A stretch of 64,000 nucleotides of DNA from Phaeobacter sp. CECT 5382 (GTDB taxonomy: Bacteria > Pseudomonadota > Alphaproteobacteria > Rhodobacterales > Rhodobacteraceae). Numbering within the stretch: the first letter of the stretch is position 1; the number at the start of each line of letters is the position of its first letter. The stretch covers positions 248,001 through 312,000 of the forward strand of contig NZ_CYSG01000003.1 of the NCBI RefSeq assembly GCF_001457775.1, in the 5' to 3' direction. The notes under the pieces were generated by a model. That model saw only the letters and a program-made list of their open reading frames with translations, did not search any database and was not told the origin of the DNA. Shown one piece after another: positions 3,823 through 20,119 of this stretch. A program made the translations under genes and the position numbers.

Positions 3823-4305
3823 CCTCTGCCCTATCGGACAGCACGACAGGTACGAAACCGGCAAGATCATGTATGCTTGATCCATTCGCAATGATGGTTT
3901 TGCTTTGCATATTAAAACCTGCCACTGCGTTTCAAGGATCACCAGCTCATCCTGAATGCAGTTTCACCTGCGCCCTCGTGTCGCCCGCAAAACGTATAAA
4001 AGAAGGATTGATATTCACAACATTTGATGTTGGAATGTATCAAGATGACACAAGAGGCTAGAATCCTGTAACATTAATGAAAGCCGCAGCGGCAAGACGC
4101 GCCGTTCGAAAATTTCATGAGTGAAAAATACATAATCTGCCATTGATGGTTACAAATGCACCCAATAGCAGAGGGATCGACGGTTCGTTTTGCGAACCAC
4201 GCCAGGGTCGTTGAGATCAGAATGGAAAGAAACGCGCCAGTTATTGCAACATCGTTACAGGTTGATGATATGCTGGCAAAATCGAAGGTCAAAGGGAGGA
4301 ACCAC
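3823..4305 (+). promoter_or_regulatory. 483-bp intergenic region, probable promoter region of the TRAP operon
   Basis: I see no supported gene here; short open frames lack family likeness and ribosome binding sites. The segment is visibly more AT-rich than its surroundings, as expected of a promoter region. It contains an inverted repeat GGTTCG-N5-CGAACC at 4182-4198, 108 bp before the start of the binding-protein gene, which could be an operator. The ribosome binding site AAAGGGAGGA (4291-4300) decides the downstream start at 4306. Confidence 0.4.
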
Positions 4306-5352
4306 ATGACCACTCGCAGAAAGCTTCTCGGAGCCGCAGGCGCCACAGCCCTCGCAGCGCTCTGCGCCACTTCGGCATTTGCCGAAAACGTCACCCTGAA
4401 AATGCACCAGTTTCTGCCAGCTCAGGCCAATGTGCCAAAGCTGATTCTGGACGTCTGGGCTGACAAGGTCGAAGCAGCATCCGGTGGCGAGATCACCATT
4501 GATCGCTTTCCTTCCATGCAGCTCGGCGGTAAGCCACCAGAGCTGATGGACCAGGCCATCGACGGGGTTGCAGACATCGTTTGGACCGTTGTTGCCTATA
4601 CTCCCGGCCGTTTCCCTTCGACCGAGGTGTTTGAACTGCCCTTCATGGTGACCAATGCCCGCGCCACCTCGCACGCGTTTTGGGAAATGTTCGATAAGCA
4701 CATGAAAGACGGTGAATTCAAGGACGTCAAAATCCTGGGCACATGGGTACACGGCCCCGGCATGATTCACTCTGCCGATCCGGTTGAGACCCCTGGCGAT
4801 CTGCAGGGCATGAAGATCCGTGGCGGTGGCCGCTCGGTCAACTCGCTGCTGACACAGCTGGGCGCAACCCCCGTTGGCATGCCCGTTCCAGCGATCCCCG
4901 AAGGCCTGTCAAAAGGCGTGATCGACGGCACCACCATTCCATGGGAAGTCACCACCGCGCTGAAAATTCCTGAGCTGGTAGAAAACCACACCGAGTTCAC
5001 CGGCAAGGCTCTCTATTCGCTGACCTTTGTTCTGGCGATGAACAAAGAGAAATACGAAAGCCTGTCGGACGCGCAGAAAGCGGCGATCGACGAGAACTCC
5101 GGTCTTGAATTCTCGGTCTTTGCCGGCGGTGTTCAGGAAGACTCCGATGGCCCTGCCCGCGAGTTCGCGCTCGACAATGGCAACAATGTCATCACTCTGG
5201 ATGAAGCCCAGACCGCCGAATGGCGCAAGCTGGCGCAGCCCGTCTATGACAAATGGCTGGCCGACATGACCGAAAAAGGTATCGACGGTCAGGCGCTTCT
5301 GGACGAAGCCTCCTACCTGATCGAAAAATACACACCACAGTACGTCAAGTAA
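4306..5352 (+). CDS. dctP: TRAP transporter substrate-binding protein, DctP family
   Basis: A 348-residue periplasmic solute-binding protein that captures an organic-acid-type ligand for the DctQM membrane unit. An N-terminal signal (residues 1-26, TTRRK... to TSAFA) carries a twin-arginine-like RR and a clear hydrophobic stretch ending at an Ala-x-Ala-type cleavage site. An in-frame ATG at 4156 would add 50 residues before the signal peptide, so the start is placed at 4306 behind AAAGGGAGGA. It is first in a dctP-dctQ-dctM operon. TRAP systems use ion gradients rather than ATP. The ligand is probably the substrate of the adjacent monooxygenase cluster, which is inference from proximity. Confidence 0.92.
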   Translation: MTTRRKLLGAAGATALAALCATSAFAENVTLKMHQFLPAQANVPKLILDVWADKVEAASGGEITIDRFPSMQLGGKPPELMDQAIDGVADIVWTVVAYTPGRFPSTEVFELPFMVTNARATSHAFWEMFDKHMKDGEFKDVKILGTWVHGPGMIHSADPVETPGDLQGMKIRGGGRSVNSLLTQLGATPVGMPVPAIPEGLSKGVIDGTTIPWEVTTALKIPELVENHTEFTGKALYSLTFVLAMNKEKYESLSDAQKAAIDENSGLEFSVFAGGVQEDSDGPAREFALDNGNNVITLDEAQTAEWRKLAQPVYDKWLADMTEKGIDGQALLDEASYLIEKYTPQYVK

Positions 5353-5367
5353 GTTAGAAATACAGCC

Positions 5368-5402
5368 AAAGGGCCGCAGCAGCATCTGTGCCGCGGCCCT
5401 TT
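5368..5402 (+). terminator. Intercistronic stem-loop between dctP and dctQ
   Basis: AAAGGGCCGC (5368-5377) and GCGGCCCTTT (5393-5402) form a perfect 10-bp stem with a 15-nt loop between the two genes. Such hairpins behind binding-protein genes commonly protect the upstream mRNA and attenuate transcription. The binding protein is then made in excess over the membrane subunits. The role here is inference. Confidence 0.7.
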
Positions 5403-5426
5403 GCGCATTATTAAAGGGTTTAAACC

Positions 5427-6008
5427 ATGCACAAGCTCATGATGGGGCTGGCCAGATCCATGGCCATATTGGGTGGTATGGTCCTCTCTCTCCTGATCAT
5501 CCTGACCTGCCTGTCGATTATCGGTCGCCTACTGAATGGCTTCCTTCACGGCGACATGATGCAAGCGATTGCGCCCGGGTTTTCAAATTGGATGATCACA
5601 TGGGTCGGACCGATCAATGGCGATTTTGAGCTGGTCGAGGCCGGCGTTGCCTTTGCCATCTTCGCCTTTCTCCCCCTCTGCCAGATCACCGTTGGCCATG
5701 CGTCGGTCGATGTTGTGGCCGATGCCTTTCCCCGTGGCGTGAAACGCTTTTTGCGCATGGTGACAGAACTGCTGTTTGCAGCCGCATTGATCCTGATTGC
5801 CTGGCGCCTGGCTGCGGGCACGATCAGCAAGTTTGGAAATGGCGAGACCTCGTTTCTGCTGGAGTTCAAGGTCTGGTGGGCCTATGGCGCCAGCCTCTTT
5901 GGCGCTGTGATTGCCGCTATCGTCGGCGCTTATATGGGTGCCATGCGCACCATCGAATTTTTTACCGGCCGCATCCAAATTTGGGACGGCGTGGAGGGTG
6001 AACAGTGA
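5427..6008 (+). CDS. dctQ: TRAP transporter small permease, DctQ family
   Basis: A 193-residue membrane protein with about four transmembrane segments, the first at residues 10-32 and the others in the middle and near the C-terminus. This is the normal size and layout for the small TRAP subunit that stabilises DctM. AAAGGGTTTAAACC precedes ATG 5427. Its end overlaps the start of dctM by 4 bp (GTGA), indicating translational coupling within the TRAP operon. Confidence 0.88.
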   Translation: MHKLMMGLARSMAILGGMVLSLLIILTCLSIIGRLLNGFLHGDMMQAIAPGFSNWMITWVGPINGDFELVEAGVAFAIFAFLPLCQITVGHASVDVVADAFPRGVKRFLRMVTELLFAAALILIAWRLAAGTISKFGNGETSFLLEFKVWWAYGASLFGAVIAAIVGAYMGAMRTIEFFTGRIQIWDGVEGEQ

Positions 6009-7510
6009 CTGCTCTTGAAATTGGCATTGCCTCCTTTCCCATCCTGATGGGTCTGATTTTCCTGCGGGTTCCTATTGGCCTGTCGATGTTTCTGGTTGGC
6101 CTTGGCGGGCTGATTCTGGTGACCGACGGCACCCAGGTGGCCTTTGGCCGCTTGAAAAGTGAGACCTACACCACCTTCTCCTCCTACTCGCTGACCATCG
6201 TGCCGATGTTCCTGTTGATGGGACATTTTGCGACCCTGGGCGGAATGTCCTCGGCACTGTTCAAAGCTGCCGAAGGCTTTCTGGGCCACAAAAAAGGTGG
6301 CGTCGCCATGGCCTCGATCGGCGCCTGCGCTGGTTTCGGTGCTATCTGTGGTTCATCGCTGGCGACAGCCGCCACCATGGGCCGCGTTGCCCTGCCCGAG
6401 CTGAAGCAATACGGCTATGCGGGTGGTTTTTCTACCGCAACACTGGCAGCAGGCGGCACCTTGGGCATTTTGATCCCGCCCTCGGTGGTGCTGGTGATCT
6501 ATGCCATCCTGACCGAACAAAACATCGCCAAGCTGTTTCTGGCGGCCTTTATCCCCGGCCTGTTGGCGGCCATTGGCTATGTCATCGTGATTTCGATCTA
6601 CGTGCGCCTGAACCCCAAGGCCGCAGGCACCCGTCCTGCCATTCCCTGGTCCGAACGCTTTGCCAATCTGGTCAAAGTCTGGCCGGTTCTCACGGTCTTT
6701 GGTCTGGTTGTGGGCGGTATCTACGGCGGCTTGTTCACCCCAACCGAGGGGGCAGCAGTGGGTGCCTTCGGCACCGGTTTGATTGCCTGGCTGAACGGCG
6801 GCTTGGATCGCCCAAATCTAGTCGACAGCTTCATGGTGACAGCGCGTTCCACCGCGATGATCTTTTTCATCGTGCTCGGTGCTGGCTTTTACAATGGCTT
6901 CCTCGCCCTGACCAAAGTGCCACAAGAACTGGCTGATTTTGTCGTCAGCCAAGGCTTCAGCCCCTGGATGGTTCTGGCCCTGATCCTCGCCTTCTATCTG
7001 GTCTTTGGCTGCCTGATGGACAGCCTTTCAATGATCCTTCTTACCATTCCGATCTTCTTCCCGGTGATTTCGGTCATGGACTTTGGCCTGCTATCCCTGA
7101 TCGATATGCAAGCAAGTGCAGCCATGGAGGTGCTGAACAACGGGATACCTGATGGCATGGGAGCAGAGATGCTCGCCTCAATTCAGGATGCCATCGCCAC
7201 CGGAACTGAGCTCACCCGCGAACAGATGAAAGAGCTGGGCATTCGGGTCACCGAGGGGCGCGTCAACCGTATCGAAGCCGAATATGTCGCCATCTGGTTT
7301 GGTATTCTGGTGCTCATCGTGGTCGAAGTTGGCTTGATCACACCTCCAGTTGGGATGAACCTGTTCATCATCAACGCAATGGATCGCAAAACCAGGATGA
7401 TCGATACCTACAAGGCAGTGATGTACTTTGTGGCCTCGGATATCATCCGTGTGATCATCTTGGTGCTCTTCCCGTTCATCACCCTGCTGCCGCTGTATCT
7501 TTTGTACTAA
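6005..7510 (+). CDS. dctM: TRAP transporter large permease, DctM family
   Basis: A 501-residue polytopic inner-membrane protein that carries out ion-coupled transport. Hydrophobic segments run through the whole length. Glycine-rich, helix-breaking loops such as GACAGFGAICGSSLATAATM and GTLGILIPPSVVLVIYAI are hallmarks of the DctM/elevator fold. There is a roughly 90-residue polar insertion near residues 360-420. It starts with GTG inside the end of dctQ. A strong terminator follows the stop, so the operon ends here. Confidence 0.93.
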   Translation: MTALEIGIASFPILMGLIFLRVPIGLSMFLVGLGGLILVTDGTQVAFGRLKSETYTTFSSYSLTIVPMFLLMGHFATLGGMSSALFKAAEGFLGHKKGGVAMASIGACAGFGAICGSSLATAATMGRVALPELKQYGYAGGFSTATLAAGGTLGILIPPSVVLVIYAILTEQNIAKLFLAAFIPGLLAAIGYVIVISIYVRLNPKAAGTRPAIPWSERFANLVKVWPVLTVFGLVVGGIYGGLFTPTEGAAVGAFGTGLIAWLNGGLDRPNLVDSFMVTARSTAMIFFIVLGAGFYNGFLALTKVPQELADFVVSQGFSPWMVLALILAFYLVFGCLMDSLSMILLTIPIFFPVISVMDFGLLSLIDMQASAAMEVLNNGIPDGMGAEMLASIQDAIATGTELTREQMKELGIRVTEGRVNRIEAEYVAIWFGILVLIVVEVGLITPPVGMNLFIINAMDRKTRMIDTYKAVMYFVASDIIRVIILVLFPFITLLPLYLLY

Positions 7511-7649: not shown

Positions 7650-8102
7650 ATGATGACAGAACAGGTTAGCAAGACAGGCAACAGCCCCACCTTTGTCCAC
7701 AGTATCCGTGTTGGCTGGGGCCACTGCGATCCAGCCCAGATCGCCTATACCGGCCACCTGCCCGGCTTTGCGCTGGAGGCCATCGATGCCTGGTGGGAGC
7801 ACCACCTAAACGGCGATGGCTGGTATCAGATGGAGCTGGATCGCGGCACTGGCACGCCCTTTGTGTCAATGAACCTCGAATTTCGCAGCCCAGTTACCCC
7901 CCGCCACCGCCTGGAGTGCGAAGTCTGGCCCTCGGCTATTGGCACCAAATCGGTGACCTTCCGCGTCGATGCCCGCCAGAACGACACCCTCTGTTTCGAG
8001 GGCCGGTTCACCTGCGTCTTTATTGATCCCTCAGAATTCAAAGCGCGCCCCGCCCCCGCTGACTATCGCGCCGTGATCGAGGCCAATCTACGGCCAGAGT
8101 AA
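7650..8102 (+). CDS. Acyl-CoA thioesterase, 4HBT hot-dog family
   Basis: A 150-residue hot-dog-fold thioesterase that probably hydrolyses a short or aromatic acyl-CoA. The family signature lies in GWGHCDPAQIAYTGH (residues 22-36), with Asp27 at the position of the catalytic aspartate of 4-hydroxybenzoyl-CoA thioesterase. CAAGGAATT precedes a double ATG (7650 and 7653), and either could start. It follows the TRAP terminator and is probably transcribed separately, though it may serve the same catabolic cluster. Confidence 0.85.
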   Translation: MMTEQVSKTGNSPTFVHSIRVGWGHCDPAQIAYTGHLPGFALEAIDAWWEHHLNGDGWYQMELDRGTGTPFVSMNLEFRSPVTPRHRLECEVWPSAIGTKSVTFRVDARQNDTLCFEGRFTCVFIDPSEFKARPAPADYRAVIEANLRPE

Positions 8103-8107
8103 GAGCG

Positions 8108-9322
8108 CTACAGCGCCTCTCTCAGCCAGCCATCCGCAAACCTGACTTGGCTAAGCCCGGCAAAACGCGCAACGCGTTCCAGCTCTGCCTCAAGCCGCTT
8201 AAGACGTGCAGGCGAAAACGTAGCGCGCCGCTCAGGCCAGAGCGCCGTCACCCGCAGGCAGTCCCCAGCCCGATCTGCTTTCATGTCGATGCGCCCGACC
8301 ATCTTTTGCCCTTCGATGAGCGGAAAGACATAATAGCCATAGATGCGTTTTGGCGCGGGCGTAAAAACCTCGATCCGGTAGTGAAAGCCAAACAGCCGCT
8401 CGGCGCGTTTGCGATCCCGCAACATCGGATCAAAGGGGCTGAGCAGCCGCAGCCGACCGGGTGCCGCTCCCAGTTCTGCGGCCTGCGCAATGGTATCCGG
8501 GCGGGCAAAGCTTTTGCGCAGGCTCCCGTCTGCCGCCTCGACCTCGATTTCTTCAATCTCACCGCGCGCCTTGGCCGCGCGGCACCAATCGCGCGCTTCG
8601 GCAGCTCTGGCCGTATCCCAAAACGCTGCAAGTTCCCCAGAGGTCGCAAAACCCAACCGGTCCAGCGCGGCATTGCACAACCAGTCAACCGTGGGCGCGG
8701 GGGCCAGCGGATCTGGCGGCGCATGCAGCCGCTCTTCGATCACCCGCTCGGTCAGGTCATAGCGTTTTTGAAACCCCTCACGCCCCACCACAGTCAGCGC
8801 GCCAGTGCGCCACAGGTATTCAAGGGCTGTCTTTGAGGGATGCCAGTCCCACCAGCCGCCAGATCCTTTCTTCTCGTCTTTGCCCAGATCCGAAGAGCTG
8901 ACGACACCATGGTCACGAATATGTTTCAGCACCGTCTCAAACTGTTGCTCAAAGCCATCGCGCCGCCAGTTGCGCCAGCGCTTGCGCAGCAATACCTCAT
9001 CGCGCTGAAACCGCAGATGCCATTGCGGATAGAACTCTAGCGGGATCATCGCTGCATCATGGGTCCAGTGTTCAAACAGTGCCCCACCGCCGTGGTAGAG
9101 TTCCGTCAGATGCTTGGGTCGATAACTGGGTCTGCGCGAATACAGGATCACATCATGCGCCCGCGCCAGGGTGTTGATACTGTCGAGCTGCACAAAACCG
9201 AGCCGGGAAATCAGCTGCAACAGATCCGCGCCTTTGGATGGCCCCGAGGGCTGTTCCAGCAGCGCGTGACGATCCATGAAGAGACGCCGCGCCGCAGTGT
9301 TCCCTAGACGCGGCAGGCCCAT
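8108..9322 (-). CDS. Winged-helix DNA glycosylase-like protein, YcaQ/AlkX family
   Basis: A 404-residue member of the HTH_42 (YcaQ/AlkZ) family, which excises alkylated or crosslinked bases. The residues QLD at 45-47 match the Q-x-D catalytic motif of the AlkX/YcaQ branch rather than the QxQ of AlkZ. Other conserved stretches include LARAHDVILYSRRP and EHWTHDAAMIP. Its ATG overlaps the stop of the upstream LacI-type regulator by one base (TGATG), so the two are translationally coupled. Pairing of this repair family with a sugar-type regulator is unusual. The glycosylase role is inferred from family membership. Confidence 0.82.
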   Translation of the reverse strand: MGLPRLGNTAARRLFMDRHALLEQPSGPSKGADLLQLISRLGFVQLDSINTLARAHDVILYSRRPSYRPKHLTELYHGGGALFEHWTHDAAMIPLEFYPQWHLRFQRDEVLLRKRWRNWRRDGFEQQFETVLKHIRDHGVVSSSDLGKDEKKGSGGWWDWHPSKTALEYLWRTGALTVVGREGFQKRYDLTERVIEERLHAPPDPLAPAPTVDWLCNAALDRLGFATSGELAAFWDTARAAEARDWCRAAKARGEIEEIEVEAADGSLRKSFARPDTIAQAAELGAAPGRLRLLSPFDPMLRDRKRAERLFGFHYRIEVFTPAPKRIYGYYVFPLIEGQKMVGRIDMKADRAGDCLRVTALWPERRATFSPARLKRLEAELERVARFAGLSQVRFADGWLREAL

Positions 9323-10347
9323 CAGCGCCGCTTCAGCGTGTCGCCATAAGAAATCGTCGGTGTAAGGGTCACGTGGCGTTCCAACTCCACCTCCGGGTCA
9401 TCCAGTTGTGCGGCGATAATTTCAGCCGCCTTGCGCCCAATTTCCAACCGGCAGGCATCCATGGTCGCCAGCTGGCGCGGCAACCCCTGCAAAAGCTCAA
9501 CCCCGTTAAACCCCGCCAGACCGATCTGACCCGGCACATCAATGCCCTGATCCATCAGATAGAGCAGCCCACCTGCCCCAATCATATCGTTGGAATAATA
9601 CAGAAAATCCAGATCCGGAGAGCGTTCCAACATCTCCTGCGTCATCTCGCGCCCCTTCGCCAGGGCAGAGCCACCAGAATAGAATGCGCGATCCTCGATC
9701 TCTACGCCTTCCTTGGCGAGCGCTTCGGTGAAGCCCTCGAACCGTTTGCGCGCCCGATGATCCAGCGGCATCTTGGTCCCCATGAAACCGATATGGCGAT
9801 AGCCTGCTTTCAGGATCGCCTTGGCCATTTCACGCCCGGCGCGACGGTGCGAGATCCCCACCATGGCATCCACTGGTTTGCCATCCGTATCCATGATCTC
9901 GACCACGGGAATGCCGGATGCATTGAGCATGGCACGTGCCGCCTCGGTATGTTCCAGCCCGGCAATGATTACACCAGAGGGACGCCAGGACAGCATCTCG
10001 TAGAGGACTTTTTCCTCTTTCTCTGGCTGGTAATCCGTCACCCCAACAACCGGTTGCAGCGCTGTATTTTCAAGTACCTGATTGACGCCTGTCAGCACCT
10101 CAGGGAACACCATGTTCGACAGCGAGGGAATAATGACAGCAACCAAGTTCACCCGATTGGAGGCCAGTGCGCCAGCGATCTTATTGGGGACATAGCCCAG
10201 CTCTTTGGCCGCAGTGAGCACTTTAAGGCGGGTTTTCTCTGAGACATCCCCCCGGTTTCGCAACACACGGCTAACCGTCATTTCCGAAACGCCTGTAGCG
10301 TCTGATACATCGCGAAGGGTGAGCGGGCGCTTGTTTTCCGTGGTCAC
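9322..10347 (-). CDS. LacI-family transcriptional regulator
   Basis: A 341-residue regulator. The N-terminal helix-turn-helix covers about residues 10-55 (LRDVSDATGVSEMTVSRVLR), followed by the LacI hinge (YVPNKIAGALAS) and a periplasmic-binding-protein-like effector domain to the C-terminus. The closest look is to the GntR/gluconate branch of LacI proteins (SLSNMVFPEVLTG). The effector is unknown. It is first in a two-gene unit with the glycosylase-like gene. No sugar genes lie nearby, so its targets are not evident here. Confidence 0.88.
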   Translation of the reverse strand: MTTENKRPLTLRDVSDATGVSEMTVSRVLRNRGDVSEKTRLKVLTAAKELGYVPNKIAGALASNRVNLVAVIIPSLSNMVFPEVLTGVNQVLENTALQPVVGVTDYQPEKEEKVLYEMLSWRPSGVIIAGLEHTEAARAMLNASGIPVVEIMDTDGKPVDAMVGISHRRAGREMAKAILKAGYRHIGFMGTKMPLDHRARKRFEGFTEALAKEGVEIEDRAFYSGGSALAKGREMTQEMLERSPDLDFLYYSNDMIGAGGLLYLMDQGIDVPGQIGLAGFNGVELLQGLPRQLATMDACRLEIGRKAAEIIAAQLDDPEVELERHVTLTPTISYGDTLKRR

Positions 10348-10501: not shown

Positions 10502-10578
10502 GGCCCCGTGGCTCAACTGGATAGAGCAGCCCCCTCCTAAGGGGCAGGTTGCAGGTTCGAATCCTGCCGGGGTCGCCA
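10502..10578 (+). tRNA. tRNA-Arg (anticodon CCT)
   Basis: A 77-nt cloverleaf: acceptor GGCCCCG pairs with CGGGGTC (one G-U), the D-arm contains GGCTCAACTGGATAGAGC, and the T-arm contains GGTTCGAATCC. The anticodon loop CTCCTAA gives CCT, decoding AGG. The 3' CCA is encoded (10576-10578). Its last 17 bases are duplicated at 20103-20119, marking it as the integration site of the genomic island that follows. Confidence 0.96.
10562..10578 (+). repeat. attL: left direct repeat within tRNA-Arg 3' end
   Basis: TCCTGCCGGGGTCGCCA, identical over 17 bp to 20103-20119. It covers the T-arm 3' strand, the acceptor 3' strand and CCA, which is the normal crossover region for tRNA-targeting integrases. Confidence 0.9.
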
Positions 10579-10675
10579 AATAAAAAAATTATTGCAATTC
10601 AAGGTGGTTACAGGCAAGTGGGAACCGATTTGTGGTGTTAGGGACACCACTGAGGGACACTACCGGAGCACCGTC

Positions 10676-12037
10676 ATGCAATACATTGAGCAGCCGAAAG
10701 GACCGGGGACCGCCTATCGCTTCAGGATGAAGGCCCCTCAGAGTTTGCGGGGCACGCCAAATCCTTGGGCAGAAGGCAAGTCCATCGGAACGTGGATCAT
10801 CAGATCAATGGCAGGTGAAAGGCATCTGCCCAGCGCCAAGAAACTGCGGGACATTTACCTAGCTGAGGTGCGGAAGCTTGAGATCGAATACCGGGCACGG
10901 CACAGGTTCAGTCTGGAGAAGGCAGAACTATGGGCAAACGCACTGCGGAATGACCGCGACGCCACCCTTGTGCGCGACCTCGTCTACGACGAAGCCGAGA
11001 GGGCACCCGAGAGCGACCGCAGGGCATTCCTCAAGGTGGCCACGGCGACTACGCTACCACTGTCCAAGGCGAGAGAACAGTATCTCGAGGCACGGGAACC
11101 GGGCAATCCCTACGGAAACAAGCCGCTTGGCAAGACGTCGGCGAACGAGGTGGTGACGGCAGTCAACTACCTCTGCGCCTTCATGGACACGACGCCTGAT
11201 GCCCTGTTTCTCGATGAAATCACTCCCGAACTGGTATCAAACTTCCAGCATGAGTTTCTCCCCGCGCAAACGTCCAAAAAGACGAGCAGGCCGCTCACAC
11301 CCGCGACCACTGAGAAGCTGATCACCATGCTTCGAGGTCTCTGGCGCTGGGCGCTGGCCAGACGGAAGGTAAAGCTGGAAGCGAACCCATTCAACCGGCC
11401 CGATGACGACGTGCCGAGAGTAAAGAAACAGAACGAGCCAAAGCGCGACCAGTTCAAGCCCGAGGAGACCCGAAAAGTGCTCGCAGCGGTCGCTCAGGGT
11501 GACCGGTTGGGAGACCTTTTCAGGTTGGGGCTGGTGACCGGGGCGCGGGTCACGGAGATCGCAAAAGTGTCCGTCGCAGGAACGAAGGAAGACGGGTCGG
11601 TTTTCCTCATCGCAGGTGGCAAGTCCGAGAATGCGAAGCGCGTCGTCCCCGTGCCCACGGTCGCACAACCCATCGTCCAGCGTCTTCGTGCCGCTGCGCT
11701 GGAGGGAGAACATGATCGGCTGTTTCACGCATTCCCTATCAATGCCGCGACGGGGACAGCCAAATCAGCTTCTAAGGCATTCACCGGGTTGCGGCGGAAG
11801 GTGCTCGGCAGAGAGACCGATGAGCGCCTAGCATTCCATTCTCTTCGACATACATGGAAGACGCTCTCTCGCAGAGCCGGTCTATCAATCGACGATGCCC
11901 ACGACCTCGGCGGATGGGCCGGTGTAAGAAGAACATCAGACCCATACGACCACGGGCTGAACGAGAAAGAACTTGCTGCAGCACAGGAAAAGGTCGCATC
12001 GTTACTTGAAAAAGAGGGCTTCCTCGAAGGTTTTTGA
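10676..12037 (+). CDS. int: Site-specific tyrosine recombinase (island integrase)
   Basis: A 453-residue phage-type integrase that would catalyse excision and insertion of the island at tRNA-Arg. An N-terminal SAM-like/core-binding domain is followed by the catalytic domain with Arg291 (TGAR), H388-x-x-R391 (HSLRHTW), His409 and Trp414 in HDLGGW, and the nucleophile Tyr424 (SDPYDHG). All essential residues are present, so it may be active. The frame is open back to TTG 10592, but ATG 10676 has a better ribosome binding site (CCGGAG) and normal family length. It reads away from the tRNA and ends 62 bp from the convergent restriction gene. Confidence 0.92.
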   Translation: MQYIEQPKGPGTAYRFRMKAPQSLRGTPNPWAEGKSIGTWIIRSMAGERHLPSAKKLRDIYLAEVRKLEIEYRARHRFSLEKAELWANALRNDRDATLVRDLVYDEAERAPESDRRAFLKVATATTLPLSKAREQYLEAREPGNPYGNKPLGKTSANEVVTAVNYLCAFMDTTPDALFLDEITPELVSNFQHEFLPAQTSKKTSRPLTPATTEKLITMLRGLWRWALARRKVKLEANPFNRPDDDVPRVKKQNEPKRDQFKPEETRKVLAAVAQGDRLGDLFRLGLVTGARVTEIAKVSVAGTKEDGSVFLIAGGKSENAKRVVPVPTVAQPIVQRLRAAALEGEHDRLFHAFPINAATGTAKSASKAFTGLRRKVLGRETDERLAFHSLRHTWKTLSRRAGLSIDDAHDLGGWAGVRRTSDPYDHGLNEKELAAAQEKVASLLEKEGFLEGF

Positions 12038-12099: not shown

Positions 12100-14640
12100 T
12101 CAGACTCGTTCAACAACGGTATCGTAGAGCCCATACCGAGAGAGGCCCGAGTGACTTGCGATGCCACTATAAGAAAGCGACGCATCCTCATACCTACGAA
12201 AGGCAAATACGGCTTGGTTCATATGCTCCGTGTTGAACACCTTGAGGCGAACCAGCAAGTGGAAGTCGGCAACGGTCAGCCCTGTCACGCTCAAGAAAAG
12301 GTCGGGTTCGAGTTTCGTGATTACATCTTGCAGCGTGTTTTCGCGGAAGTCTGTCAGATACATAAACGCGGGTATCCGAGTTGCGAATTTTACTAGCTTT
12401 TCTTGAACAAGTTTCCGCTTCGATTTGAATTCTCTCTCCTCTGCGGAAAGCTCATTCCTTTCTTTCTCCGTGATGTCGCCGGACTTGGCCTTCCCCTTTA
12501 GTTCTTTGACCTTTTCGCTCTTGTTGATGATCGTTTCGATGATGTTGTCGCCGAGCGCGCGCCACCCTTCGATACGTTCCACCGCCTTCATGGCTTCTTC
12601 GTCGTCCATGATGCGGCGTAGGGTATCGTTATCGACGTTCACCAACAGCGCGCTTTCCCATTTACGAGCCAGCAGCGTCGCAGAAGTTCCGGCCATCGCA
12701 ATGTCCAGAATGCCGCCAGCATCAATCTGGGTCATGTTCGCGCCGTCGTAGGCCAGCACCGGCAAGAACGACACAAGATCACGAACTGCGTTTTCAGGGT
12801 TTGGTTCGTTTGGCGAAAGCCCAATGCCGTATTCCGACAACTGACGAAGAGCGCGGGTCGGTGCAAAATCGAAGACAAAGCAAACCGGCTTGAGAACTTC
12901 TTCCTCGTTGGGATTGTCGCCATTCGGGTTCTTGATCGCCCACGGTGATTGCACCCTAAACGCGGCTTGAAAATACGTTTCCGGCGATTTCAGGTTCCGC
13001 AGCATCAGGATTGAGGACCATTGCTTGACCGTCACGCCAGTGGTGAGCTTGCCGCAGGACAGGGTTATCGACTTCGTGTCAAAGCCGCTGCCGATAGCCT
13101 CGCGAACTGGTGGTAAGGCTTCAAGCCCGATGCCAGCGGACGTGCCTGCCGACACAACCACGTTGTATTCGTGCCAAAAGGTGTTTTGCCGCTCGGCCAA
13201 CAGTTTTGCCATCGCATGACATGCGGCGACGTTTGGCAGGAACCAGAAAGAGTGCTGGAGGTATGGCAACAGCCGCACGTCGGAATATGGAAACGGCGGT
13301 CGTGTCCCTGTTCTGAGGTTGTCCACCACGTGAGCCCCGTGCTGGCCCCTGATGATATTCAACCACGTCTGAACTTCATCCTTGTAGTTGAACTCGGCAT
13401 CTACGCCTGTCCCGGTCGCAGCAAAGAACTCGTTTAGGTCGAACTCGTCAAACTCACCGGTGCTGGCAATGGCCAACAGATCATCCGGCATTTGATAGGT
13501 CAGCAACCTCATCTGTGGCAGCGAGCCGTAAGGGTTCCATTGGCCAGGGTGGTTTGCGGAAAACTCAGCCTTGGCGCGTTGCTCGTCGGTGTAGGTCCAG
13601 TTGAAAATCTGTTCTTCAATGAACTCGCCCGTTGCCAGCGCTTTGAACGGCGTGCCTGATAGATAGAGAAATGCCCGCGTTTTGATCGACAGGAACTCTG
13701 CCTCAGCCTCAAGCGGTTCAGCCATCTCGGCCACACGGTCAGTGAGTTTCTTTGCATCTTCGAGAAGCTTTTCCTCGCGCTCAAGAGCTTCTTCTTCGCC
13801 TTCGAACAACTCCTTCGCGCTCTCGCGCCATGCGCCGAAATGGTATTCGTCAAAAACCACCAAGTCCCAATTGACCGCGTGAAGCCATTCGTTCTTCGCC
13901 TTGACGTGACCCAGCTTGTCCTTGCCCAACATGTCTTGGAACGATCCAAAGTAAACCACAGGTTTGCTTTCGTCGATCTGGGTTGGATCGGCATCCGACT
14001 TGCGGGACAAGTATTGCCAGCCATCGAAATCGACATGGCTTTCAAGATCTGTTTGCCACGCATCTTCTACGGCTGGCTTGAAGGTCAGCACCAGCACCCG
14101 TTTTGCGCCCATCTTGCGGGCCAACTGGTAGGTGGTGAAGGTCTTGCCGTAGCGCATCTTGGCGTTCCACAGAAAGCGGGGAACGGCGTGCATGTCCTCG
14201 GACCAGCGCGACATGTAATAGGCGTGGGTTTCCTCGACCGCTTCAGCTTGTTCCCGACGCATGGGAAAGTCGAGATGATGGGTGCCAGAAAGTTTCTGCC
14301 CGGAGCGCAGTTCCGTAAGGACGGTCTGCACATCCGCAAGCGAACAACGCATCCATTCTTTTTCAGTATTCACAAAACCCTTGCTGACAAGGCGCGCACG
14401 CACTTCATGGTCGGTTATGAAAGAACCGTCCGCGCGTTCTGCTGGCTCATCAAGTTCGATGGTGAAATTCTTGATCGCAGCGGTGCCGAGTTGCTCGTTT
14501 ACCCGTTGCCGCACATCCCGTGTGGTCTGCCCGACTTTGAGAAGGCCCGCGTGGGCGGCATCGTCAATCGAATAAGCATATATGCGGGGGCGAGCCTTTG
14601 GTTTTGGCTCTAGAATGTCGTCTACGGTTCGCGCCATCAA
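12100..14640 (-). CDS. GIY-YIG nuclease fused to SF2 DEAD/DEAH-box helicase (restriction subunit of an R-M-like system)
   Basis: An 846-residue two-part protein. Residues about 18-100 resemble the T5orf172/GIY-YIG nuclease fold: YAYS at 21-24, KVGQT at 35-39, Arg44/Arg46, and Glu79 in DHEV. Residues about 120-600 are a superfamily 2 helicase/translocase with Walker A MRYGKT (162-167), the DExH box DEYH (264-267), motif III SGT (328-330) and a motif VI-like FRVQSPW. A Glu/Lys-rich insertion at 270-320 and another near 690-740 look like coiled coils. It is third in an operon with two MTase-like genes, overlapping the middle one by 4 bp. By analogy with type I/III/ISP enzymes it would translocate on and cut unmodified foreign DNA. 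The nuclease assignment is family inference. Confidence 0.8.
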   Translation of the reverse strand: MMARTVDDILEPKPKARPRIYAYSIDDAAHAGLLKVGQTTRDVRQRVNEQLGTAAIKNFTIELDEPAERADGSFITDHEVRARLVSKGFVNTEKEWMRCSLADVQTVLTELRSGQKLSGTHHLDFPMRREQAEAVEETHAYYMSRWSEDMHAVPRFLWNAKMRYGKTFTTYQLARKMGAKRVLVLTFKPAVEDAWQTDLESHVDFDGWQYLSRKSDADPTQIDESKPVVYFGSFQDMLGKDKLGHVKAKNEWLHAVNWDLVVFDEYHFGAWRESAKELFEGEEEALEREEKLLEDAKKLTDRVAEMAEPLEAEAEFLSIKTRAFLYLSGTPFKALATGEFIEEQIFNWTYTDEQRAKAEFSANHPGQWNPYGSLPQMRLLTYQMPDDLLAIASTGEFDEFDLNEFFAATGTGVDAEFNYKDEVQTWLNIIRGQHGAHVVDNLRTGTRPPFPYSDVRLLPYLQHSFWFLPNVAACHAMAKLLAERQNTFWHEYNVVVSAGTSAGIGLEALPPVREAIGSGFDTKSITLSCGKLTTGVTVKQWSSILMLRNLKSPETYFQAAFRVQSPWAIKNPNGDNPNEEEVLKPVCFVFDFAPTRALRQLSEYGIGLSPNEPNPENAVRDLVSFLPVLAYDGANMTQIDAGGILDIAMAGTSATLLARKWESALLVNVDNDTLRRIMDDEEAMKAVERIEGWRALGDNIIETIINKSEKVKELKGKAKSGDITEKERNELSAEEREFKSKRKLVQEKLVKFATRIPAFMYLTDFRENTLQDVITKLEPDLFLSVTGLTVADFHLLVRLKVFNTEHMNQAVFAFRRYEDASLSYSGIASHSGLSRYGLYDTVVERV

Positions 14641-16283
14641 TCATCTTTCAGCTTGTCGAACAGGTCCAAGTCCATCGGGCGGACGATTTTTTCGACAAAG
14701 GCGATTTCCTCGTCATTCAGGCCATACTTTTCATACAGTTCTTCATCGGTCCACTGACGATCCCAGCTTTGCTTCGGCACAAATGTGTAGACCCGCTTTG
14801 TGGTGTCCTGAGAGGGCTTGTGCAAAAGGATCAAAAAGCGGGTCAATCGGCATCCCAAATACGATAGGGCACTTTGTGCTTCCTCCTTCTCGGAGAAAGG
14901 GCCAATGCAAAGATATGTCTCGGATGAGATTGAAGCCGGCTCGCCAATAAAGGGTGTGCTAATGATTTTATGTGGATAGGTGTCTCTGTTTCCCGTGCCA
15001 GGTGCAGCGCGGCCAGTAAAAACCTTCCATCCATCGATGTAATTCAAACCAGCTTTTATGGTTTCTCTAGGAGTAAAGCCGACGCCTCCGTTTTGATACA
15101 CTTTGAGGTCGTTCTCTTTTGGCGTCTTCTTCCCCTTGAAAGTTGTTGTTAACCCAAAGGGCTTCCGCGAACTGACCATCGTGTCAAAGCGCTGATCGTC
15201 TGGCAAGACGAGGGTTTCATCTTGGCCAGTCTCAACTTTCATAACCTTCTTTAGGATTGAGACCCCCTCATTGAACCTGACAAAAATCTCCACCCCGTTT
15301 TCCAACAATGGCCGGGTTGCTTCGGATACAGGCCAGTCCTTAAAATTCGTTGAGATGCGACAATCTCCGGGGTGATCTTTATCCCACAGGAAATAGCAAA
15401 CGCCCCCTTTGAGGCCAACGCCGGGAAATACATCTGCCGCACTGAGGTAATCGTTGATCGAACGCAGGCGGTCATCTTCGAGCATGGATTTTCGGAAATC
15501 GTCAAGGCCCTTCCCTCCAGCGAACCAACGAGAAGGTATCACCATTGTCAGGTAGCGTGGGTCGAGCGCTTTCGCCTGCTCTACGAACTTGTGGTAGATG
15601 GGTGCTGCGCTTGTACCATGCCCTCCATCGTCCAATTGATAGGGTGGATTTCCGATTACCACGTCGAAGTGCATGTCGCCTCCAAACAGCGCTGACACGC
15701 GCTCTTGTATGTTGTCTGTATGGATAAAAGCATAGGCGTGACTTTCGCGGTCATCACCTCGATCCAGTGTTGAACTGCTGGCTCCGCAAAAGATGCACTT
15801 TCCCTTGTTCTTTTCGTTCGGTTTTTCCCAAGTATGTTCCACCCGTTCAAACCAGACATTGCCAGTTTCAGAATTGATGCCGCGCGTGATCGAATGCGGG
15901 CCATTTGCGTGTTTGGAGCAATACAGCGACCGCCGTGCCAGCATGGCCGTCAGTTCGGTGATGCCAATGCCGAACACCTGCCGAGTCAGGATGTGGTCTA
16001 CACGCGCTTGTAACTCGGGCATCTGTGGCTCAAGGCCGTCGATCAGACGTTTGGTGATTTCGCGCAGGAACACTCCTGACTTGGTGCATGGGTCAAGGAA
16101 CCTGACGGACGGGTCGGCCCAAATATTTGAGCCGTTATTGTCCGCTGCCCATGCTTCTGCCAGCGTGTCCAACATCCGGTTGGCGAACTCAGGCGGCGTG
16201 AACACTTCGTCGTTGGACAGGTTTGCAATGCAGGACAGAACGTCCGGGTTCCGCCCGCGCAGCGTGAAGGCGGCTTGATTCAT
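14637..16283 (-). CDS. Eco57I-type N6-adenine DNA methyltransferase
   Basis: A 548-residue gamma-class amino-methyltransferase that probably methylates adenine in the system's recognition site. It has motif X-like FTPPEFANRML (28-38), motif I FLDPCTKSG (62-70, replacing the usual FLDPACGSG), and the catalytic NPPY at 212-215. Between motif I and NPPY lie Cys122, His125, Cys163 and Cys166, a probable metal-binding knuckle. The C-terminal third looks like the target-recognition region of Eco57I/TaqI-type enzymes, and no separate specificity gene is present. It overlaps the upstream small MTase-like gene and the downstream helicase gene by 4 bp each. Confidence 0.88.
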   Translation of the reverse strand: MNQAAFTLRGRNPDVLSCIANLSNDEVFTPPEFANRMLDTLAEAWAADNNGSNIWADPSVRFLDPCTKSGVFLREITKRLIDGLEPQMPELQARVDHILTRQVFGIGITELTAMLARRSLYCSKHANGPHSITRGINSETGNVWFERVEHTWEKPNEKNKGKCIFCGASSSTLDRGDDRESHAYAFIHTDNIQERVSALFGGDMHFDVVIGNPPYQLDDGGHGTSAAPIYHKFVEQAKALDPRYLTMVIPSRWFAGGKGLDDFRKSMLEDDRLRSINDYLSAADVFPGVGLKGGVCYFLWDKDHPGDCRISTNFKDWPVSEATRPLLENGVEIFVRFNEGVSILKKVMKVETGQDETLVLPDDQRFDTMVSSRKPFGLTTTFKGKKTPKENDLKVYQNGGVGFTPRETIKAGLNYIDGWKVFTGRAAPGTGNRDTYPHKIISTPFIGEPASISSETYLCIGPFSEKEEAQSALSYLGCRLTRFLILLHKPSQDTTKRVYTFVPKQSWDRQWTDEELYEKYGLNDEEIAFVEKIVRPMDLDLFDKLKDD

Positions 16284-16933
16284 GCTGCGGCCTCGGGTGC
16301 TGGCCCATTTTGCTCGGCTAGGTCTTTGATCGTCATTGGCGGATAGGTCTTCGTCGGTTTGAAAATTTCGTGGTTCCCAAGACCCGCGAATAGCGACCCC
16401 TCGGCGTTAAATGCAGATGCGCCGGTTAATGCATCCAATCGGAAATCCCGACGCTGGAACTTACCTTTGCCAATATATCCCCATTCCGCAAATGAAATCG
16501 GACCACCAAGAGTTGTTTTCATAGATAGCGCATCGCCGTGAACGAGGTTGGTAGAAAGAACATGCGACGCAGCACGGTACAGATCATCCTCTAACGAAAG
16601 GCCCAGATAATCTGACAGCACTTCCAGCATATTGGCCCGGCATTCTTCGATATTGTCGGCCAGAAGCTCGATCCCGTAGCAGCACATCAGAGCCAAGAGC
16701 GTATAGTGACGGCGGTTGAAATCAGACTTGCCAAACTTCATCTGAACAGCCGCCAACTTGCGTTGCAGGACCGGCACGAGGAAGTTGCCGCTACCGCACG
16801 CGGGTTCTAGGAAGCGGGCATCGATCCGCTCTGTCTCGCCCTTCACAAGGTCAAGCATAGCGTCCACCATCCACGCAGGGGTAAAGACTTCGCCATGGTC
16901 GGCGACACGTTTTTTCGAACGAATGAGGCTCAT
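16280..16933 (-). CDS. Small SAM-binding MTase-like subunit lacking motif IV
   Basis: A 217-residue protein with the N-terminal half of an adenine methyltransferase: VFTPAWMVDAML (16-27), motif I FLEPACGSGNFL (41-52), YGIE (86-89) and an HGDAL segment (133-137). The expected NPPY/DPPY is absent; ISFAEWGY (146-153) occupies that stretch. It therefore probably binds SAM or DNA without catalysing transfer. It is first in the R-M-like operon and overlaps the full methyltransferase by 4 bp, which argues for an intended subunit rather than a decaying fragment. There is no strong ribosome binding site before ATG 16933. Confidence 0.75.
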   Translation of the reverse strand: MSLIRSKKRVADHGEVFTPAWMVDAMLDLVKGETERIDARFLEPACGSGNFLVPVLQRKLAAVQMKFGKSDFNRRHYTLLALMCCYGIELLADNIEECRANMLEVLSDYLGLSLEDDLYRAASHVLSTNLVHGDALSMKTTLGGPISFAEWGYIGKGKFQRRDFRLDALTGASAFNAEGSLFAGLGNHEIFKPTKTYPPMTIKDLAEQNGPAPEAAA

Positions 16934-17310: not shown

Positions 17311-17949
17311 ATGTCCAAGGCAATCTTCTATGCCCGCGTTTCCACCAGTGAACAGACCAGCGACCACCAAGAACAGCAGGCGCGGTTGGCAGGGTTTGAT
17401 ATTGATGAAGTTGTGACCGATCATGGCACCTCAGGCGTCACCACCAAATTGGCGGAAAGACCCAACGGCAAGCGGTTGTTTGATATGCTACGCGAAGGTG
17501 ACGTTCTGGTGGTCCGTTGGGTGGACCGCTTGGGGCGCAACTATCAGGACGTGACGGACACCATTCGGGCGTTCATGCGGCGTGGCGTAATCATCAAGAC
17601 CGTGATCAATCGCATGACCTTCGACGGTTCCACCACAGACCCCACACAGCAGGCCGTCAGGGACGCTCTCATTGCCTTCATGGCCGCAACCGCACAGGCC
17701 CAAGCGGAGGCTGTAAAAGAGGCCCAAAAGGCTGGCATAGCGTTCCACAAAAACGCATCCCCAGAGAAGTTCAAGGGCCGCAAACCCTCCTTTGACAGGG
17801 CCGCGTTTGATCAAGTGATGGCCTTACATCAGGCGGGTCAGGGTCAGTCAGCCATCGCCAAAGCAACGGGTCTACAGCGCAACGCAGTCATTCGGATTAC
17901 AAGCGACCCTGCGAAGGTGGACGCGACGTTGAGCCGATGGGGCATGTGA
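17311..17949 (+). CDS. Serine recombinase, resolvase/invertase family
   Basis: A 212-residue small serine recombinase. The catalytic motif YARVSTSEQ places the nucleophile at Ser11 with Arg9, and VDRLGRN carries Asp72, Arg73 and Arg76. The C-terminal 45 residues (RAAFDQVMALHQ... QRNAVIRI) form the DNA-binding helix-turn-helix. Length and domain order are normal, so it is probably functional. It would resolve or invert DNA between its own sites, perhaps the TGAACA boxes on either side. It is divergent from the R-M-like operon inside the island. Confidence 0.92.
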   Translation: MSKAIFYARVSTSEQTSDHQEQQARLAGFDIDEVVTDHGTSGVTTKLAERPNGKRLFDMLREGDVLVVRWVDRLGRNYQDVTDTIRAFMRRGVIIKTVINRMTFDGSTTDPTQQAVRDALIAFMAATAQAQAEAVKEAQKAGIAFHKNASPEKFKGRKPSFDRAAFDQVMALHQAGQGQSAIAKATGLQRNAVIRITSDPAKVDATLSRWGM

Positions 17950-18297: not shown

Positions 18298-18981
18298 ATG
18301 ACGACCATCAAGAAACCGGCTGGCTTGTCCAGCGCGGCCCCATTGTGCTGCCCGCAGTGCAGCGTAGAGTTTCACCCCAAGAGAAAAGACAAGAAGTACT
18401 GTTCATCCAAATGCGCCAAGGCGGCGACGCGAAATGCATCGCGCGGTGGAAGATCATTTGAGCAGAAAGTGACGAATGAAGTCCACTACTGCCGCGCCCG
18501 TGATCTTGCCGATATGCTATACACGGCCCCCGTCACTGCACGACTTGGCATAATGAAAGCGATACTGGACGCAGCATCAGATCACGACAGCGGGTTGCGG
18601 CGTATATTGACTGACCCAACGTTCCTCAAAGCATCCCCAGAGACCCCCCATTTATTCCATCGCCGCGCGCCTAGTTCCTACAAGACCATCAGCCAAGCAG
18701 CGAACGCCTACACCCAGAAGTTCCATGGCATTTCCATCCAAACCTACCTCAAGGATGCCCGTTCGGGGGCACTGAAAGAACATCACGAGGTCAGCCGGAA
18801 AGTGGACTATGGTGCGGTGCCGGTGCTGACAAAGATCAGGAAGCCAAAATGCTGGCACCGGCCTCTGTCTGACGACAAAAACATGGAAGCATCTGAGCAA
18901 CTTGCCTCCGACATGGAGCGAGTGCAGCGTATTGTTGATGATGCGCAGGCTCGTGCAGAAGGTCTTCTTGAAGCTGCCTGA
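18298..18981 (+). CDS. Zinc-ribbon protein of unknown function
   Basis: A 227-residue protein with an N-terminal Cys4 zinc ribbon: CPQC (18-21), then Cys35 and Cys39 (YCSSKC). The spacing suits a small DNA- or RNA-contacting or protein-binding finger. The rest is polar with several basic patches and a C-terminal acidic helix (residues about 195-225) likely to coil. There are no membrane segments or signal peptide. It lies downstream of the resolvase in the island. I do not recognise a characterised family; a regulator or defence accessory is possible but unproven. Confidence 0.7.
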   Translation: MTTIKKPAGLSSAAPLCCPQCSVEFHPKRKDKKYCSSKCAKAATRNASRGGRSFEQKVTNEVHYCRARDLADMLYTAPVTARLGIMKAILDAASDHDSGLRRILTDPTFLKASPETPHLFHRRAPSSYKTISQAANAYTQKFHGISIQTYLKDARSGALKEHHEVSRKVDYGAVPVLTKIRKPKCWHRPLSDDKNMEASEQLASDMERVQRIVDDAQARAEGLLEAA

Positions 18982-20102: not shown

Positions 20103-20119
20103 TCCTGCCGGGGTCGCCA
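20103..20119 (+). repeat. attR: right direct repeat of tRNA-Arg 3' end
   Basis: Identical over 17 bp to 10562-10578 (TCCTGCCGGGGTCGCCA). Bases on either side differ from the left copy, so the repeat is exactly bounded. It is not part of a second tRNA gene, as expected for the right end of a tRNA-integrated island. Confidence 0.9.

Follow-up and report, generated by a model that had tools for sequence, protein, structure and literature searches.

A DrdVI-type restriction–modification operon with a probably divided adenine methyltransferase on a tRNA-linked island of Phaeobacter sp. CECT 5382

Within the 64,000-nucleotide stretch of Phaeobacter sp. CECT 5382 DNA analyzed here (the window), three consecutive open reading frames lie on the minus strand at 16933–12100, and none is interrupted in the window's ORF list. 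They encode two methyltransferase-related proteins, M1 and M2, and a nuclease-motor protein, R. The operon is carried by a 9.5-kb element that extends from tRNA-Arg(CCT) to a 17-bp copy of the tRNA end and includes a tyrosine integrase. The features are as follows.

10502–10578, plus strand: tRNA-Arg(CCT), the integration site (attL core at 10562–10578)
10592–12037, plus strand: tyrosine integrase of the island (ORF and Pfam match)
12100–14640, minus strand: R, GIY-YIG (T5orf172) nuclease plus SF2 helicase/translocase
12691–14265, minus strand: SF2 motor of R, approximately residues 126–650 (AKMRYGKT, DEYH, SGTP)
14311–14580, minus strand: T5orf172/GIY-YIG domain of R, residues 21–110 (Pfam match)
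14637–16283, minus strand: M2, 548-aa Eco57I-type m6A methyltransferase subunit
14784–15278, minus strand: target-recognition region of M2, approximately residues 336–500 (approximate boundaries)
15639–15650, minus strand: motif IV, NPPY, residues 212–215 of M2 (present in 113 of 113 pairs)
15909–16283, minus strand: M2N, the N-terminal half of M2 (residues 1–125), a paralogue of M1 with an altered motif I, DPCTKSGVF (K68), and G107 in place of the motif-II acid
16280–16933, minus strand: M1, 217-aa methyltransferase half with motifs X, I, II (acid E89) and III and without motif IV
16781–16807, minus strand: motif I of M1, EPACGSGNF
17311–17949, plus strand: serine recombinase/resolvase inside the island, divergent from the operon
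20103–20119, no strand assigned: attR, an exact 17-bp copy of the tRNA 3' end (sequence match)

An earlier note, made from the letters of the sequence, had described a three-gene restriction–modification-like operon on a tRNA-integrated island, and both parts of that description are borne out. A search of the family at E 1e-50 detected R in 5 of 295 genomes (its own genome counted, and one of the five a fragment), which fits a mobile element. The domain content also agrees with what the note had read from motifs. M1 matches the Pfam model N6_Mtase at 20.8 bits (cut-off 20.4), only over residues 11–57 around motifs X and I, and NPPY was not found in it. M2 matches Eco57I at 121.9 bits and carries NPPYQ at residues 212–216, and R matches T5orf172 (GIY-YIG type) over residues 21–110 and ResIII over residues 126–279. 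Pfam assigned neither an HsdS nor a PD-(D/E)xK domain to any of the three, again as described. The 4-bp overlaps that had been reported hold for M1 and M2 (ATGA). For M2 and R, the overlap is 4 bp if R starts at the TTG at 14640 (846 aa), but it is 1 bp (TGATG) with the ATG at 14637 (845 aa), which is the probable start. Promoter and terminator scans at the operon gave results at chance level.

To place the operon, R was compared with plasmid sequences. A tblastn search of PLSDB returned 79 records, in 34 of which a single place covers 80% or more of the query. Over its full length, R is 73.7% identical to the product of a gene of plasmid pDrdVI (Deinococcus wulumuqiensis NEB 479), where M1, M2, and R adjoin in the order seen in the window; M1 and M2 are 69% and 71% identical to their DrdVI counterparts. 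M1-2.DrdVI was cloned and expressed in E. coli ER2796 by Fomenkov and colleagues, with m6A methylation assigned to GCAGCC and the system classed as type IIG (PMC6430315, PMC4996451), and later literature refers to DrdVI-like “split methylase” genes (PMC10113651, for MaeIV). The full-length R match, the identical gene order, and the methylation by cloned DrdVI together place the operon in the DrdVI family, and it is almost certainly a restriction–modification system of this kind, already named but little studied. DrdVI resides on a 15.5-kb plasmid, whereas the window's operon lies on a tRNA-linked island. Between the two M2 proteins, identity is 81% over residues 1–125 but only 69% over the target-recognition region (residues 336–500), so the target may differ; by analogy, these values perhaps make GCAGCC a fair guess for the window. 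The target-recognition domain (TRD) varies separately from the rest of the protein across relatives. For example, in one relative (L117), M2N is 83% identical to that of the window and the TRD 26%.

The earlier note had considered the combination of genes to be undescribed, and a truly undescribed defense system is now very improbable. No NCBIfam model reaches its cut-off for M1, M2, or R, and PADLOC gives its best matches to unspecific IIG or MTase_II models and lower-scoring ones to PglX and mad2, among others (for M1, among the best 25 of 37 matches), all of which would suit a new system. However, the literature already documents DrdVI and MaeIV as family members, and the DrdVI match (R at 73.7%, gene order, and assigned methylation) rules this reading out; in effect the whole operon matches a described system, by homology rather than by profile. 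What is of interest is the reciprocal split between M1 and M2 and the natural one-chain proteins described below, more than the operon itself being unknown.

Known classes fit the operon to different degrees. Type ISP enzymes (LlaGI, LlaBIII) are single polypeptides with an Mrr-type nuclease and are not known to have an M1, whereas the window has three chains and a T5orf172/GIY-YIG nuclease and so falls outside a single-polypeptide class. In type III systems, Mod is a beta-class methyltransferase with motif IV before motif I and is accompanied by Res; in M2, by contrast, the altered motif I precedes motif IV. Pfam scans of the three operon-encoded proteins and of four others from the island or its flank returned nothing of the HsdS type, which sets the operon apart from type I. 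BREX and MADS do not apply either: their PglX and MAD2 NCBIfam models score 11–25 bits where 400 and 720 are required. A strict type IIG enzyme joins REase and MTase in one polypeptide, whereas the window has three ORFs. The PADLOC model REase_MTase_IIG (PDLC03626, 1359 residues) is a single chain of which R aligns to 181–679 and M2 to 1010–1348, as successive parts; M1 is absent against it among the matches listed (best 25 of 37). The DrdVI-type layout looks like a permutation in which the methyltransferase itself is divided. One TRD-like region is present in the operon, in M2; M1 ends before a TRD, and the three proteins gave no S-type match. One source broadens IIG to “IIG-like” on the basis of a single TRD (PMC4752239). 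MaeIV of Methanococcus aeolicus, which is likened to the window by description rather than by sequence, places m6A on one strand of GCACY (PMC10113651), a target different from the GCAGCC of DrdVI; for both, methylation is known from cloned M1–M2. DnmA-YeeB-YeeC (PMC9973331) and the type IIG-like OspHL35III (PMC4752239) likewise combine an m6A methyltransferase, a translocase, and a GIY-YIG/T5orf172 protein; however, as given in the accessible portions of these papers, they have one MmeI-like methyltransferase chain and a separate nuclease and translocase, and those portions mention no M1.

A survey of the gene order across genomes, which the earlier note had suggested, revealed a recurrent arrangement. 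In 80 related genome loci, a distinct split-type M2 was present in 79, M1 lay upstream in 76, and R lay downstream in 75, a recurrence that puts the M1–M2–R order beyond chance. M1 is more than 300 bp away from M2 in 11 of the 76, and six of the seven cases of a missing M1 or R are at contig ends. These loci are the best 80 of 566 confirmed and were found with two patterns, one of which is the M2 motif [FW][LF]DP[CGF][CT]K[SA]G; their K-S-G counts therefore lack independence, and for the principal count we turned to loci selected through R. For this purpose, 45 viral-contig loci were picked by R patterns alone, to avoid circularity, and yielded 36 distinct split-type M2 proteins. Two duplicates were left out, as were seven loci without a split-type M2 by the thresholds used: three that begin at R at a contig end (L197, L207, L232) and four that are distant (L237–L240).

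M1 and M2N are paralogous, as an hhalign alignment across motifs X and I indicates (probability 97.3, E 2.1e-11), and the motifs kept by one are lost by the other. At R-chosen loci, the first glycine of motif I is a lysine in all 36 M2N sequences (DPxxK[ST]G versus DPxxGxG) and NPPY is present in all 36 M2 proteins; M1 is found upstream at 34 of these loci, with GxG in 34/34 and NPPY in 0/34. One of the two loci without M1 is at a contig end; the other, L233, has room for M1 upstream, where none was detected, and M2 and R are present. All 113 M1 proteins carry the motif-II acid (E or D), whereas none of their M2N partners does (G 70, A 39, S 3, P 1), a count over pairs from all sets preselected at above 150 bits for M1, 90 for M2N, and 300 for M2C (the catalytic half of M2), so that divergent members such as the EITCGEAP subclass are excluded. 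In that subclass of M1 (L035, L180, L181, L183), EITCGEAP replaces EPACGxGNF, but the first glycine and the motif-II acid are retained. Among the M1 proteins of the genome loci, 3 of 76 fell outside the motif-I pattern and were left out of examination. K68, G70, H150, C163, C166, and H188 of M2 are conserved in 111–113 of the 113 pairs, with K68 and G70 partly favored by the search pattern of the genome scan; this conservation indicates that M2N is not decaying. H150, C163, C166, and H188 form a possible zinc site. Motif I of M2N was also followed in 23 fusions of the motor to M2N or M2N–M2C, where it reads K-[ST]-G 20 times and T-A-G twice, was not found in one, and is never GxG. A glycine-type motif I does occur in the M2-like protein beside R of three distant cousins (L237, L238, and L240), two of which (L237 and L240) also have an M1-like gene. 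A description of the reciprocal motif loss or of M1–M2C fusions was not found in the literature searched, a search to which REBASE and supplements did not belong.

Natural proteins that join M1 directly to M2C were found in four viral-collection contigs, each with both parts in one chain and without M2N (L156, L157, L180, and L194). Two are on phage contigs, a 523-aa protein with head-protein matches nearby (L156) and a 520-aa protein with a T7-like RNA polymerase nearby (L157); R was not detected in approximately 9 kb downstream of either. The other two contigs are the more revealing. In a 718-aa ORF at 7879–10035 (L180) and a 678-aa open frame at 4094–6127 (L194), a divergent M1 is joined to M2C, and R, encoded by the next gene, carries a C-terminal M2N. 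Compared with the stand-alone M1 of L183, the M1 portion of L180 shows 46% identity. This division indicates that M1, and not M2N, can stay with the catalytic half even in a system that contains R. Adjacent M1 and M2C genes without M2N occur in L160 and on a contig that ends soon after M2C (L158/L250). In a Treponema locus (L036), an Arthrobacter locus (L037), and others, M2N is at the C-terminus of the motor and M2C is a separate gene, a cut at the same joint. Two further proteins were not counted: a one-chain methyltransferase whose N-terminal half scores alike as M1 and M2N (L176) and a joined but interrupted M1–M2C copy (L170). Cellular M1–M2C fusions numbered 0 in 398 genomes of the phylum at E 1e-15, where separate genes were found in two, our own included.

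Gene order, homology to a proven methylation system, reciprocal motif loss, and natural one-chain M1–M2C proteins are observed. We think it likely that the operon is a DrdVI-type, ATP-dependent restriction–modification system whose adenine methyltransferase is divided over M1 and M2. M1 would give the S-adenosylmethionine (SAM) half (motifs X–III); M2 would add NPPY for catalysis and the one target-recognition domain. Together they would place m6A on a single strand of an asymmetric site. R would be recruited through M2, translocate along DNA with unmodified sites, and cut via GIY-YIG, while M2N, the conserved altered copy of the SAM half, would couple M2 to R. SAM binding by M1 and its completion of the M2 active site, translocation, cleavage, the role of M2N, and specificity are inferred. 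That M1 is the working SAM half is nearly as probable as the scheme as a whole; a restriction-coupling role for M2N is a suggestion to which we give slightly less than an even chance. The one-chain M1–M2C proteins in operons with R (L180 and L194) raise both estimates. If right, the “split methylase” label becomes a testable division of labor, cofactor half versus catalysis and target reading, with a conserved third half-domain, and a natural two-part adenine methyltransferase would exist across many bacterial phyla, judging by record titles, and could serve as a model of how protection and attack draw on one recognition module. The named reference, with its known methylated site, also replaces the reading as an unknown system.

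The motif losses bear on a different view, that M2 is a complete methyltransferase which binds SAM in M2N despite the motif-I lysine. M1 would then bind SAM in an accessory or regulatory capacity, as a sensor, an activator, or an assembly factor on which restriction or the tuning of activity depends. We consider this unlikely, though M2 alone is predicted by AlphaFold2 to fold as a complete methyltransferase (with an alignment of the window's M2 and 58 relatives, drawn from a non-redundant set of 111), M2N is highly conserved and hence not decaying, an M2-like protein with a canonical motif I (DPCCGRGTF) occurs alongside an M1-like gene in the distant cousin L240, and L233 has M2 and R with no M1 detected. 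Against it, M2N has lost the motif-I glycine (36/36) and the motif-II acid (113/113) and M1 in those sets has lost neither; where the catalytic half shares one chain with a single SAM half, that half is M1 rather than M2N in four contigs, and phages retained M1 and dropped M2N. A further possibility is that the operon has lost restriction, its nuclease-motor being dead and its methylation module an orphan. The same has been proposed for dnmA-yeeB-yeeC of B. subtilis, where, in the accessible part of the report, neither three phages nor transformation were affected (PMC9973331). For the operon here, this reading is more doubtful still. The three ORFs of the window are intact, and R retains its active residues: Y21, K35, G37, D77, and E95 in 111/111 aligned rows and R46 in 110/111, with the Walker, DEYH, and SGTP motifs and the nuclease residues kept in 110–111 of 111, the rows being the window and homologues preselected by score (GIY above 60, helicase above 700 bits), with divergent members excluded. 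The same part of that report states that Vibrio crassostreae homologues alter sensitivity to some phages (PMC9973331).

Within the divided-methyltransferase scheme, a bolder and rather unlikely extension is half-domain exchange, in which M2C would pair with M1 to methylate and with a SAM-blind, motor-held M2N to restrict. It is consistent with the presence of M2N in 36/36 R-chosen split systems, a motif I that is never GxG in the 23 motor fusions, the chains of L180 and L194 divided exactly into M1–M2C and R–M2N, and phage methyltransferases with M1 and M2C but without M2N. The distant cousins L237, L238, and L240, whose half next to R has a glycine-type motif I, speak against it. Structural and coevolutionary comparisons added little. 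The best matches in a PDB sequence search (M1 to 3ufb_A, E 0.075; M2 to 5hx7_A, 0.2; R to 8bao_A, 0.63) gave nothing useful, the alignment for M1–M2 coevolution lacked sufficient depth (113 pairs, effective 89, 703 columns), and joined M1 and M2C scored against Pfam gave a mixed result. In the predicted structure of the L157 fusion, the halves are undocked (pTM 0.67, both halves in only 2/61 alignment rows), and the M1 half is weak at residues 1–60 (block pLDDT 54–78), so the model favors neither side.

The phage proteins were also placed in FastTree trees of 130 M1 and 132 M2C sequences. L157 groups with the L132 system in both, with support of 0.911 in the M1 tree (together with L132 and L077) and 1.0 in the M2C tree. 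L156 falls among other restriction–modification systems, with its M1 near L107 (support 0.42, weak) and its M2C with L133 (0.895). The different neighbors in both trees suggest that the two phage joins probably arose separately. Such fusions could be self-methylating escape genes acquired from restriction–modification systems of this kind.

Parts of DrdVI-type systems also occur on phage contigs as methyltransferases that join M1 (the half with cofactor motifs X–III) to M2C (the catalytic, DNA-reading half of M2) and have no M2N, the N-half of M2 with an altered motif I. These include:

L156, 5653-7224: M1 + M2C methyltransferase without M2N, phage contig
L157, 317-1879: M1 + M2C methyltransferase without M2N, phage contig

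M1 and M2C of DrdVI-type systems, with M2N absent, were likewise seen on the phage contigs L158/L250 (a single contig) and L160. It is possible that the phage M1-M2C enzymes of L156, L157, L158/L250, and L160 provide self-methylation against the DrdVI-type restriction family. In other related loci, a restriction–modification operon is divided into two chains, with R denoting the GIY-YIG nuclease–helicase protein:

L180, 7879-13369: operon, chain one M1-M2C, chain two R-M2N
L194, 4094-9435: operon, chain one M1-M2C, chain two R-M2N

Incomplete sets were also found. In L041, M1 and M2 are both present and no R was detected in approximately 5 kb downstream, and this may be an orphan methylation pair. 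L233 encodes M2 together with R:

L233, 7395-9005 and upstream: locus with M2 and R

No M1 was found in the 7.4 kb upstream; a 344-residue open frame lies there in its place. The viral contigs L281-L301 carry a solitary M1-like open frame of 136-215 aa, with no neighboring M2C match except a weak one in L300. In the one such frame that was read (L283), motif I is canonical and NPPY is absent.

Among distant cousins, the gene order is R-M2-M1 in L237 and L240, and motif I of their M2-like protein is of the glycine type. L238 has the same motif type in its M2-like protein, and M1 was not found there. These three loci possibly represent a state preceding reciprocal motif loss.

Two further features lie in the window:

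15720-15836: His-Cys-Cys-His set of M2 (residues 150, 163, 166, 188), between motifs II and IV
18298-18981: 227-aa island protein, Cys-rich stretch at the N-terminus

The His-Cys-Cys-His set is near-invariant and may form a zinc site. For the 227-aa protein, a Pfam scan gave nothing over the cut-off. In the relatives' genomes G677, G681, and G385, the contig with the intact tRNA-Arg(CCT) also bears, at a distance of 13-15 kb, a second 47-bp copy of the tRNA 3' end, which suggests other islands at this same site.
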